In this document: positions 16,247 to 63,640 of the stretch, piece after piece
Numbering within the stretch: position 1 is the stretch's first letter
Layout of the letters: each line of letters opens with the position of its first letter
NCBI RefSeq assembly: GCF_003781945.1
Contig: NZ_RJJW01000005.1
Location: 240,102-304,101, forward strand
Length of the DNA stretch: 64,000 nt
Source: Halorubrum sp. CSM-61
Lineage (GTDB): Archaea > Halobacteriota > Halobacteria > Halobacteriales > Haloferacaceae
Direction of reading: 5' to 3'
Made by a program: the position numbers and the translations under genes
The notes under the pieces: generated by a model
What the model was told of the DNA's origin: nothing
Seen by the model: the letters and a program-made list of their open reading frames with translations, nothing else
Databases searched by the model: none

Positions 16247-16300
16247 GGCTCTGTTGGAATTCAATTGTCCAGGTATCTCCTCAAATGAAGCAATCGGTCG
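16247..16300 (-). mobile_element. Decayed insertion-sequence end (transposase C-terminal remnant)
   Basis: GGCTCTGTTGGAATTC and the following ~35 nt align with 45455-45510 (GGCTCTGTCGAAATCC). Read on the minus strand both give related C-terminal peptides, RRYLDN-stop-IPTEP here and ARTYLKNGISTEP there. I infer two independently decayed copies of one transposase gene end; the stop codon here shows it is dead. Confidence 0.4.
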
Positions 16301-16444
16301 ATAGGAACTGTGTGTTGACTGCCAGCAGTTCTACCGGTTCAGAGAGCCACTCCGATAGCCGCGTGAGATACAACGCGCGTATCGATCGCCGATCGTGTCG
16401 ACCGCCGAGTTCTCAGTCAGAAAGTACGGAAGTTGCAAACCGAC

Positions 16445-16951
16445 TTATCTGCGTCGTGCTTCTTTTCGCACTCTGTCAATGAATTTTCGCGTTTTGGGTG
16501 AATTGCGGGCGACGTTCAGCTCTATAGATACATCTGGATTCGGCGTGGTAATTACATATCCCGTTGATTTTTGTAAATATGAAGCTACAATAATAAATAA
16601 ACCACCGAGAATTGATAAGAGTCCAAGAAGTTCTGAACCAGTAACTACAAGAGACATGATAATCCCCCCTACTATGAAGGAACCGCCCGTTATGAGTTGC
16701 ACTATGATATTATCCGTCTTTTCATCGACACCAACTATCTGATCGAGCGAGATATCAGATAATTGGTTAGAAGACAAGTTCGACGTTGTTGCGATAACCC
16801 GCGAATCCGTCAGATAGTATTCCATATCAGTCGAATCAAAAACGCTCTTTGACTTAGTCGAAAGTTTTAATATAATATTCTCGTTTTCAAGCAAAAAGTT
16901 CGGCCTGTCGTTGAGTTGATTGTTTGATTCGGATTGCTGTTCTGTGGACAT
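16445..16951 (-). CDS. AT-rich membrane-anchored PH-domain-like protein
   Basis: The 168-aa protein resembles bacterial-PH-domain proteins: an N-terminal polar part (NENIILKLSTKSKS, YYLTDSRVIATTSN), then a helical hairpin of two membrane segments (about residues 108-147), then a C-terminal tail with VARNSPKTRKFIDRV. It is much richer in AT and in Asn/Ser/Ile/Lys than its neighbours, which points to horizontal transfer. A TATA box (minus-strand CTTTAAATATG, 16974-16985) lies about 28 nt before the ATG. Role unknown. Confidence 0.65.
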   Translation of the reverse strand: MSTEQQSESNNQLNDRPNFLLENENIILKLSTKSKSVFDSTDMEYYLTDSRVIATTSNLSSNQLSDISLDQIVGVDEKTDNIIVQLITGGSFIVGGIIMSLVVTGSELLGLLSILGGLFIIVASYLQKSTGYVITTPNPDVSIELNVARNSPKTRKFIDRVRKEARRR

Positions 16952-16973
16952 ATGGTTACCAACAATAAATTCT

Positions 16974-16985
16974 CATATTTAAAGG
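16974..16985 (-). promoter_or_regulatory. TATA box for the AT-rich PH-like gene
   Basis: On the minus strand CTTTAAATATG is centred about 28 nt before the ATG at 16951, consistent with leaderless transcription. Confidence 0.55.
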
Positions 16986-17207
16986 TTTTTGCTGTTACAT
17001 TTTCGACCTAATTGAGAGCTAAATCAGGCCTGTGCTGAATTCATCTCCTGTACTGACCGGAGGGGGAGGCGGACATTCTCTAAGGATTTTAACAGAACCG
17101 GCTGCTTGACGCTGACGGATGTACGTGACGCAGATCGATGGCGCGGCCGTTTATCGACGATTGGCTGCAATCCGGCGGTGGAAGCCTCCGAAGCGCCGAT
17201 TGATCGC

Positions 17208-17715
17208 TTATAAGCGGTTGCTGTCGACAGATCGACGGCGGACACCTCCAAACCCCAGTTGCTCGGTTATAAATGATTGACTGTCGATCGACGGCGAACA
17301 CTTCCAAAGCCCCAGCCGCGAGGCGGGCGCACGCTCGCTGCGGTCCTCTCTCGGTCGCTCACCGTGTTCGCTCCCTCGTTGCGGTCCTTGCTTCGCCTGC
17401 GCCCGCCTCGCGGCTGCCCCTTTGAATCCCACCCGCCCGCAACCGCACCGCCGGAAGACGGTCACGCGGTTTCACCGCGTGAGTAAGCGAGACCTTCGGT
17501 CTCGCCTTGGTCCTGCTCGCTCACTCCGTTCGTTGCGCGGGCTGCGACTTCTGTGCTCCCGTTCGCTCCCGTCGGTCGCTCACGGGACCGCAGCCTCACG
17601 CCTCCCCAGCCTCGTCGGCCGGCGCTTATAAGCGCCGGCCGACTCCCTCGCGCGTGCTCCTCGGCCGCGAAGCGGCCTCGCAGGCACGCGCCACCGCATA
17701 GTTACTTATAAGCAG
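17208..17715 (-). repeat. Dispersed stem-loop repeat, copy A
   Basis: This is one of three related elements (others at 45530 and 63107). A perfect 18-bp inverted repeat has arms at 17313-17330 and 17399-17416, flanked by CAAAG/CTTTG. A perfect 30-bp palindrome lies at 17614-17643 (GTCGGCCGGCGC-TTATAA-...). A third stem has outer arms GCGCGTGC (17650-17657) and GCACGCGC (17684-17691) around a GGCCGC/GCGGCC hairpin. The left side carries about three degenerate ~57-bp units (from ~17148), each starting near a TTATAA or TTTATC box. On the minus strand a CTTATAAG box lies just before GCGGTGGCGCG, the conserved right end. This copy has about 120 nt of extra sequence in the middle. The strand given is the one proposed for transcription. 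Confidence 0.8.
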
Positions 17716-45454: not shown

Positions 45455-45510
45455 GGCTCTGTCGAAATCCCGTTCTTCAGATACGTTCTCGCCTGAAACG
45501 GCTGGTCGCT
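45455..45510 (-). mobile_element. Decayed transposase C-terminal remnant
   Basis: Homologous to 16247-16300. On the minus strand it encodes QARTYLKNGISTEP, in frame but with no upstream transposase. It adjoins repeat copy B. Confidence 0.4.
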
Positions 45511-45529
45511 GAAGAGTGCTTCTTGATTG

Positions 45530-45970
45530 AGTGCGGGAGTGGATATATCGATATGGTGGAGTGGTTGTTTATAAGCGATCGAGTGGCGTTGCTGTCGGCT
45601 GTTTATAAGTCGTCGACGGCGTTGCGATGAAGACCTCCAAAGCCCCAGCCGCTGTGGGCGGCGCACGCTCGTTGCGCTCCTCACTCAGTCGCTTCGCTCC
45701 CTCGTTGCGGTGCTTACGTCGCCTGCGCCGCCCACAGCGGCTGCCCCTTTGAGTCCCACCCGACCGCACAGCCTCCCGCCTCCCCAGCCTCGTCGCTGGC
45801 GGCTGTCGCCGCCAGCGACTCCCTCGCACCGTCGGTTCGCGGCCCTACGGGCCGCTCACTGGGGCGCGCCACCGCGTTGTTCTTTATAAGCGATCGTCGC
45901 CGCCGCTCACGGATCCTTTAAATACTGATTCGCCACCACCGATCTGCAATACCTACTCCCGGCATCGCTC
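45530..45970 (-). repeat. Dispersed stem-loop repeat, copy B
   Basis: Related to 17208-17715 and 63107-63640. A perfect 20-bp inverted repeat has arms at 45646-45665 and 45724-45743, the palindrome GTCGCTGGCGGC-TGTC-GCCGCCAGCGAC lies at 45792-45819, and a hairpin GCGGCCC-TAC-GGGCCGC at 45839-45855. The arms differ in sequence from copies A and C but keep pairing. The left border (45540-45625) has two TTTATAAG boxes and is about 90% identical to copy C; the right border (TTTAAATACTGATTCGCCAC) is also conserved. The strand given is the proposed RNA strand, with a CTTATAAAG box just before GCGGTGGCGCG. Confidence 0.85.
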
Positions 45971-46029
45971 ACAGGCTCTCTTTCGATGGCCGACCGTTTC
46001 GAACGAGACGACATCCGGCGGGTGAGATA

Positions 46030-63013: not shown

Positions 63014-63106
63014 CGACTCTCGACGGTCGAGGGTCGAGCGACGGGCCGGCGTCGTTGTAACTTCGTTTCCAAGCCGGAGCTCGGAGTGGACGCCCTCTCG
63101 TAGACG

Positions 63107-63640
63107 ATTGATACCGGGAGTACGTATATCGATATGGTGGAGTGGTTGTCTATACGGGATCGAGTGGCGTTGCTGTCGGTTGTTTATAAGTGGTCGACGG
63201 CGTTGCGGTGAAGACCTCTCGGGGATCGACGGTGAACACCTCCAAAGCCCCAGCCACTGCGGGCGGCGCACGCTCGCTGCGCGCCTCACTCGGTCGCTCA
63301 CGGCGTTCGCTCCCTCGTTGCGGTGCTTGCGTCCCCTGCGCCGCCCGCAGCGACTGCCCCTTTGAGTCCCACCCCACCCCGCACCGCAACCGCACCTCAC
63401 GCCTCCCCAGCCTCGTCGGCTCGGCGCTTATAAGCGCCGAGCCGACTCCCTCGCGCGTGCTCTCGCCGGCGGCGTTGCCGCCGGCTGTCAGAGGCGCTTC
63501 GCGCCTCGCTACTCGCGCCCGATGAGCCCTCGGAGGCACGCGCCACCGCCGTTTATTTATATGTGGTCGTCGTCGCTCGCGACTGTTTAAATACTCACTC
63601 GCCACCACCGATCTGCGATACCCACTCCTGCTATCGCTCG
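63107..63640 (-). repeat. Dispersed stem-loop repeat, copy C
   Basis: Related to copies A and B. The main stem has arms at 63251-63270 and 63337-63356; the two mismatches become G-U pairs if the minus strand is transcribed. A perfect 32-bp palindrome (63415-63446, centre TTATAA), hairpins GCCGGCGGC-GTT-GCCGCCGGC (63465-63485) and GAGGCGC-TTC-GCGCCTC (63491-63507), and outer arms GCGCGTGC/GCACGCGC (63453-63460, 63536-63543) follow. The left border (GTATATCGATATGGTGGAGT) and right border (GTTTAAATACTCACTCGCCA) match copy B. Confidence 0.85.

Follow-up and report, generated by a model that had tools for sequence, protein, structure and literature searches.

Architecture of the Element and Its Copies in the Window

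The window, a stretch of 64,000 nucleotides from Halorubrum sp. CSM-61, contains at about 17.2 kb a palindromic element that recurs at about 45.5 and 63.1 kb with its stems changed and still paired. The question raised by this locus was whether such copies are held together by selection on a structure and, if so, on which strand and in which molecule. The three copies (A, B, and C) were found where the original prediction had placed them, and all of them matched a single covariance model on the minus strand, at 45638-45791 (155 bits, copy B), 63243-63414 (144 bits, copy C), and 17305-17465 (129 bits, copy A). A fourth full copy was absent from the window when the covariance model of the main hairpin (H1) and the linker was used, which gave one weak extra match inside copy A.

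On the plus strand, a copy is generally made up of tandem ~57-bp units carrying TTATAA (one to five of them), followed by H1, a linker, a second palindrome (H3) and a terminal hairpin (H4), often with a second TTATAA beyond it. H1 reads CAAAG-CCC-stem-...-stem-CCC-CTTTG on this strand, and the linker between H1 and H3 reads AGTCCCACCC...CTCCCCAGCCTC.

In copy A, the tandem left units (17208-17304, plus strand) carry TTATAA at 17208-17213 and 17267-17272 and end with ...GGCGAACACTTC before CAAAG, with the TATA spacing of the family (35/38 nt). H1 occupies 17305-17424 on the minus strand, where it reads CAAAG-GGG-stem-apical G.A rod-stem-GGG-CTTTG. Between H1 and H3 lies an extra, optional hairpin module, H2 (about 17440-17600), which was also observed in the sequences of loci L002, L003, L004, L006, and L009; this module and the tandem units make copy A the longest of the three. 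H3 (GTCGGCCGGCGCTTATAAGCGCCGGCCGAC, one of several variants listed) lies at 17614-17643 and H4 at 17650-17697, both on the minus strand, the latter ending with GCGCCACCGC (GCGGTGGCGC on the minus strand), and the right-hand TTATAA follows at 17706-17711 at the conserved distance of 7-8 nt. No terminal repeats were recognisable in this copy.

Copies B and C carry an additional outer layer of inverted repeats, GATCGATAGCGGGAGTGGGTAT, about 450-530 bp apart. In copy B, the left outer end GGCTCTGTCGAAATCC of an IS5-type MITE layer (45455-45470, plus strand; pattern match at G000:C7:285556-285571) and the left inner inverted repeat GATTGAGTGCGGGAGTGGATAT (45525-45547, plus strand) precede H1 (45638-45751), H3 (GTCGCTGGCGGCTGTCGCCGCCAGCGAC, 45792-45819) and H4 (45827-45875, with the same end as in copy A), all three on the minus strand; the right-hand TTATAA, placed by sequence and spacing, follows at 45884-45889, and the right inner inverted repeat ATACCTACTCCCGGCATCGCTC at 45949-45971 (minus strand). 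Copy C is bounded by the inner inverted repeats GATTGATACCGGGAGTACGTAT (63106-63127, plus strand) and ATACCCACTCCTGCTATCGCTC (63618-63639, minus strand), which enclose H1 (63243-63364), H3 (GTCGGCTCGGCGCTTATAAGCGCCGAGCCGAC, 63415-63446) and an H4 region with extra hairpins and the same end (63452-63549), again on the minus strand.

Just to the left of copy A, 853 bp (16247-17099) are flanked by degenerate GGCTCTGTTGGAATT / AACAGAACC ends and probably represent an IS5-type MITE insertion that has decayed; the interior of this stretch was not seen at the same gap in the relatives examined.

Copy Number and Distribution

The original prediction had described a three-copy family, a count that proved far too low. 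The signature GGCNGCCCCTTTGAGTCC (18 nt, searched with two mismatches allowed) gave 181 matches in the 3.7-Mb genome versus 1 for the reversed control, that is, about 180 copies. An independent estimate, from 17 copies in the 340 kb of contig 7, scaled to about 186 per genome. The family was present in every congeneric genome sampled, and the covariance model matched 221 of the 292 Halobacteria genomes sampled and 62 of 77 genera. Outside Halobacteria the model gave no match: all 30 matching genomes among 247 sampled across the phylum, roughly 200 of them from outside the class, were haloarchaeal.

Exact matches to the signature came mostly from Halorubrum, with others from Haloarcula, Haladaptatus, Halobaculum, Haloparvum, Natrinema, Halorussus, Halopiger, and further genera. 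Strong model matches numbered from 4 to 72 per genome in 20 genomes of other genera, a count that is not exhaustive. Inverted pairs of copies were observed in several other genera; at loci L281, L297, L298, and L299 it is the main hairpin that forms such pairs, those of L297 and L298 having a short AGTCCCACC...GGTGGGACT centre and outer GAACAGC-like inverted motifs. An exact signature match was also found in a contig labelled as the Bacteroidales MAG UBA1714 (L322), for which contamination, mis-binning or chance are possible. Behind the plasmid copies of Natrinema and Natrononativus (L127, 2026-2907; L128, 2074-3015) comes a gene that weakly matches an Ssb-like OB fold; this match, which fell below Pfam's cut-off, was the only sign of a protein partner near these copies. 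A viral origin was rejected, the phage collection containing no match to the core element and the viral contigs no exact signature.

Covariation and the Invariant Internal Loop

The covariation of H1 was well above that of both column-shuffle and slid-partner controls. In an alignment of 46 diverse copies, standard pairs filled 95.6% of the cells versus 81.7 ± 0.5 after shuffling, 28 of 35 pairs were changed on both sides (13.7 when shuffled), and the covariation score was 0.374 versus 0.123; the covariation was destroyed when the partner was slid by 1-3 columns. In these figures the shuffle leaves relatedness in, the structure is taken from the same alignment, and the exchange of whole hairpins inflates the cell counts; therefore, the spread over many genera weighs more. 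Across the class, the base helix of H1 also changes on both sides, as CAAAG/CTTTG, CGAAG/CTTCG, GAAAG/CTTTC, and GGAAG/CTTCC.

The symmetric GGG/GGG loop that had been noticed inside CAAAG/CTTTG was invariant in all 46 aligned copies. Two GGG tracts thus face each other in the H1 loop, and two more lie in the adjacent linker in 43 of the 46 aligned Halorubrum copies. The difference between the main stems of copies A and B (CAGCCGCGAGGCGGGCGC versus CAGCCGCTGTGGGCGGCGCA) is likewise real and compensated. The compensating changes from which selection on structure had been argued are therefore genuine, but the copies are also mobile and recombining, a point that the earlier argument had left out of consideration, and part of the compensated variation has been spread by the exchange of whole hairpins. 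A case in point is the H3 palindrome of the copy at C7:197139, which is wholly different in the genome under study and in a relative (G003) and near-perfect in both, and which points to exchange between copies. With this correction, selection on structure is supported by the covariation, by the double changes of the base helix and by the strand asymmetry described below.

These results indicate that the conserved feature is the fold of the purine-rich (minus) strand and not one sequence. In this fold, an invariant GGG/GGG internal loop sits close to the base of a long hairpin, the stem varies freely but with compensation, and tandem G.A pairs form a rod at the apex; in Halorubrum, a G-rich linker and two further hairpins come after it.

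Strand Asymmetry and the Probable Folding Strand

A fold that is made by one strand should tolerate G.U pairs on that strand, and not the A.C mismatches that the same change produces on the other. In the stem arms of Halorubrum, G.U was found on the minus versus the plus strand in a ratio of 57:12 (164 distinct stems, p = 3.7e-8), and in those of other genera in a ratio of 58:12 (120 stems, p = 2.2e-8). Both p-values assume independent stems, which is not fully true, and more weight falls on the agreement between two separate sets. An earlier test with 36 stems from other genera had given 9:6, the result becoming clear with 120, and the aligned subset A1 alone was weak (28:14 in all). In the apical part, C>T (5.2%) and G>A (6.4%) were about equal; therefore, a simple mutation bias does not explain the asymmetry. 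In the linker, where the C-rich strand is strongly conserved, the corresponding values were 0.9% and 6.1%.

Furthermore, the apical helix of the minus strand is built of tandem G.A/A.G steps that alternate with Watson-Crick doublets varying in register, and these doublets covary (GC/GC, GG/CC, AC/GT, GT/AC, AG/CT). At least two in-register G.A modules were present in 135 of 162 Halorubrum hairpins (0.3% of dinucleotide shuffles) and in 48 of 119 hairpins from other genera (0.13% of shuffles). The G.A columns, which would be C.T mismatches on the plus strand, are near-invariant (45/46, 44/46, 46/46, and 43/46), and the pairs that flank them covary. Thermodynamic folding does not choose between the strands (z of -6.9 for minus and -7.3 for plus). 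The choice of the minus strand in the original prediction is nevertheless borne out by the G.U asymmetry together with the in-register G.A modules, and it is very probably the strand that folds. A kink-turn reading of the G.A motifs was not adopted: a kink-turn requires a G-A step following the three-nucleotide bulge, and the bulged strand has none.

TATA Boxes and Direction of Transcription

A TATA box had been proposed to precede the conserved end GCGGTGGCGCG on the minus strand in all copies. It was observed beside this end in the three copies of the window, but across the family it was present in 87 of 140 copies rather than in all, versus 2 of 382 background windows. The right-hand TTATAA lies 7-8 nt beyond the end of H4, at a conserved spacing. 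TTATAA is palindromic; therefore, the direction cannot be read from the box itself. The spacing from the start of the TATA box to the start of transcription in haloarchaea is about 26 nt (PMC8707807). The argument for a minus-strand promoter at the right-hand box is weak on this measure and was set aside, for its start would fall about 13 nt inside H4, within the element, and would not neatly account for a full-length minus-strand RNA. The left boxes precede CAAAG by 35 or 38 nt and, with a spacing of 26 nt, would produce a plus-strand RNA starting in the GGTGAACACC motif.

Genomic Placement, Gain and Loss

All of the copies examined lie outside predicted genes. In contig 7 and 600 kb of a relative (G012), with gene orientations taken from codon-usage gene predictions made in this analysis, copies were present in 16 of 73 convergent gaps versus 17 of 470 other gaps (odds ratio 7.5, p = 4e-7), and in only 1 of the 167 divergent ones. 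A smaller sample from other Halorubrum contigs gave 9 of 14 convergent (p = 1e-4).

The presence of a copy differed between relatives at several sites. Where the genome under study has the copy at C7:12821, the gap measures 86-96 bp in four relatives; G003 shares the copy at C7:188513, whose core is deleted in G005; G003 also shares the copy at C7:197139, which G012 lacks; and at the site of copy A, the element was found in G005, a trace of it in G040, and none in G012. The synteny between contig 7 and the 600 kb of G012 was too poor for many sites to be compared. In contig C98 of G003 (L123, L124), a rearrangement relative to the window has a copy of the element at each of its breakpoints, which suggests recombination between copies.

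Association With IS5-Type MITEs

The ends GGCTCTGTTGAAATCC were found in the core-bearing loci L051, L111, and L268 and also in L195, which encodes an IS5-family transposase. Target duplications of exactly 8 bp were observed in L195 and in related MITEs without the core (L007, L046, and L143), whereas those of the three core-bearing loci match at 7 of 8 positions; two other candidates gave 2/8 and 4/8. A subset of the copies thus rides in IS5-type MITEs. Neither the inner nor the outer repeats were recognisable in 88 of the 130 Halorubrum copies that had enough flank, and therefore this vehicle explains only a subset. We hold with high confidence that a subset of the family is a non-autonomous mobile repeat, and consider this probable for the family as a whole. 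An IS6-type outer end, first guessed from the 8-bp duplication, was abandoned on account of the transposase encoded by L195.

The related MITEs without the core carry other cargo between the same ends: L007 (878-1475) and L143 (16131-16728) share a common cargo of 598 bp, which differs from that of L046 (1951-2691), where a 133-aa ORF has a membrane-like look. Additionally, at L472/L002 (G000, C23, near 316400-317100), a TnpB gene adjoins a family copy with a broken main hairpin, apparently an IS605-type insertion into the repeat.

Discussion

The existence of a class-wide, high-copy, covarying fold is shown by these results, and our confidence in it is very high. On its best explanation, which we place at about an even chance, the family is a haloarchaea-wide, intergenic, non-coding mobile structured repeat, with selection for folding acting on its minus strand, probably in the form of RNA. 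The minus strand would be transcribed, and the RNA fold would be recognised by a protein, either of the host or a transposition factor; only copies able to fold would persist and spread, each being a unit of a selfish, non-autonomous repeat with a constraint at the RNA level, and the repeat would be tolerated mainly where genes converge. We judge RNA somewhat more likely than DNA as the selected molecule. Caution is advisable here: judged from their spacing, the best-placed TATA boxes would drive the plus strand, wobble pairs make up about 2-4% of the stem pairs, a share below expectation for RNA helices, and the likeness of the arms could come partly from copying between copies or arms. Within the RNA reading, a new class of structured RNAs of Halobacteria, made from many loci per genome, with a long rod in which tandem G.A pairs recur at regular intervals and an invariant G-tract loop, and serving a so far unrecognised protein, is advanced tentatively; its G tracts could fold as a quadruplex at the molar potassium levels inside the cells.

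A serious rival, less likely in our estimation, is that the selected fold is one of single-stranded DNA, the minus strand folding when it is exposed in replication or transposition and being recognised by a transposase or a single-strand-binding protein, in the manner of palindrome-associated elements that IS200/IS605 transposases mobilise. GNA-type loops and tandem G.A pairs are very stable in DNA, triloops such as GCGAAGC exceptionally so, and apical loops of this type (GCGAAGC, GCGGAGC) are present here. The stems come close to perfect inverted repeats, wobble pairs being few, and the strand-specific tolerance of G.U, which fits RNA, fits single-stranded DNA as well, G.T being among the milder mismatches. 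Most copies have no terminal inverted repeats, the genome contains one Y1 transposase gene, and the PATEs of Haloquadratum reach similar numbers (177-194 copies; PMC3119063). Nevertheless, no IS605-type end or target motif was identified. In a comparison made with the H1 model, clear matches lay near only 2 of the 15 TnpB/TnpA loci of the genome (L464 and L472), the second of which overlaps a disrupted copy of the family, and the idea that the family forms part of IS605 elements is not supported.

We think it unlikely that the element is useful to the host, for instance as a bidirectional terminator, a 3'-end stabiliser or a chromosome-organising site between convergent genes. Its ancient, class-wide conservation and the strong preference for convergent gaps in Halorubrum, with hardly a divergent gap occupied, would suit such a role, but the same would be expected of a selfish repeat that avoids promoters. 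Among the other genera sampled, moreover, the preference was not significant (7/22 versus 22/105, p = 0.27), the orientation relative to the upstream gene was inconsistent among copies, and at the loci compared, closely related species differ in whether a copy is present. Least of all do we favour a neutral reading, in which the palindromes are remnants that mutation or gene conversion keeps symmetrical and no fold is selected, and which is very improbable: GC-rich palindromes are common in haloarchaea and whole hairpins are exchanged between copies, as at C7:197139, but symmetric copying would not be expected to give invariant unpaired bases (GGG/GGG, tandem G.A) surrounded by covarying pairs, nor a strand-specific wobble asymmetry in two separate sets, and the near-equal C>T and G>A of the apical part likewise speak against it.

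The family is an abundant and apparently unnamed non-coding feature of many haloarchaeal genomes, in which high copy number and mobility are coupled with strand-specific selection on a fold. It makes testable the idea that archaeal mobile repeats spread or persist by means of RNA or single-stranded DNA structure, and its hundreds of natural compensatory variants offer material for structural work in a high-potassium cytoplasm. That no described family fits, as the original prediction had it, agreed with Rfam 15, where the window yielded only a tRNA at the gathering threshold and six related loci had no match up to E=1, and with the open-access literature, in which searches by keyword and by sequence found no description of the family.

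The REP/BIME, ERIC, BOX, and RUP elements of bacteria are also intergenic, high-copy hairpin repeats, often near gene ends. Compared with them, the haloarchaeal family is larger, multi-hairpin, restricted to Halobacteria and unrelated in sequence, and, unlike the case of REP/BIME, no RAYT-type partner was identified for it; the one Y1_Tnp gene of the genome has no H1 match at its locus. If the RNA reading is right, it resembles the IS605-associated omega RNAs and HEARO in having a conserved fold that travels with transposable elements, although the family has neither tnpB nor any other gene attached to it. The intergenic repeats of the halovirus HF2 in Halorubrum hosts consist of ~57-58 bp units with a TATA motif and have been shown to be promoters (PMC8707807); the left units of the family resemble them by length and motif. 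The closest parallel is with the MITEs, PATEs and small mobile repeats of Haloquadratum walsbyi. In the accessible part of PMC3119063, these are not reported with a strand-specific covarying fold, nor with the invariant GGG/GGG loop and tandem G.A rod that are shared across the class here. They are nonetheless like the present family in being non-coding and palindromic, in their dispersal at 100-200 copies, and in their strain- or species-specific insertions, to which the copies found here inside IS5-type MITEs may be compared.
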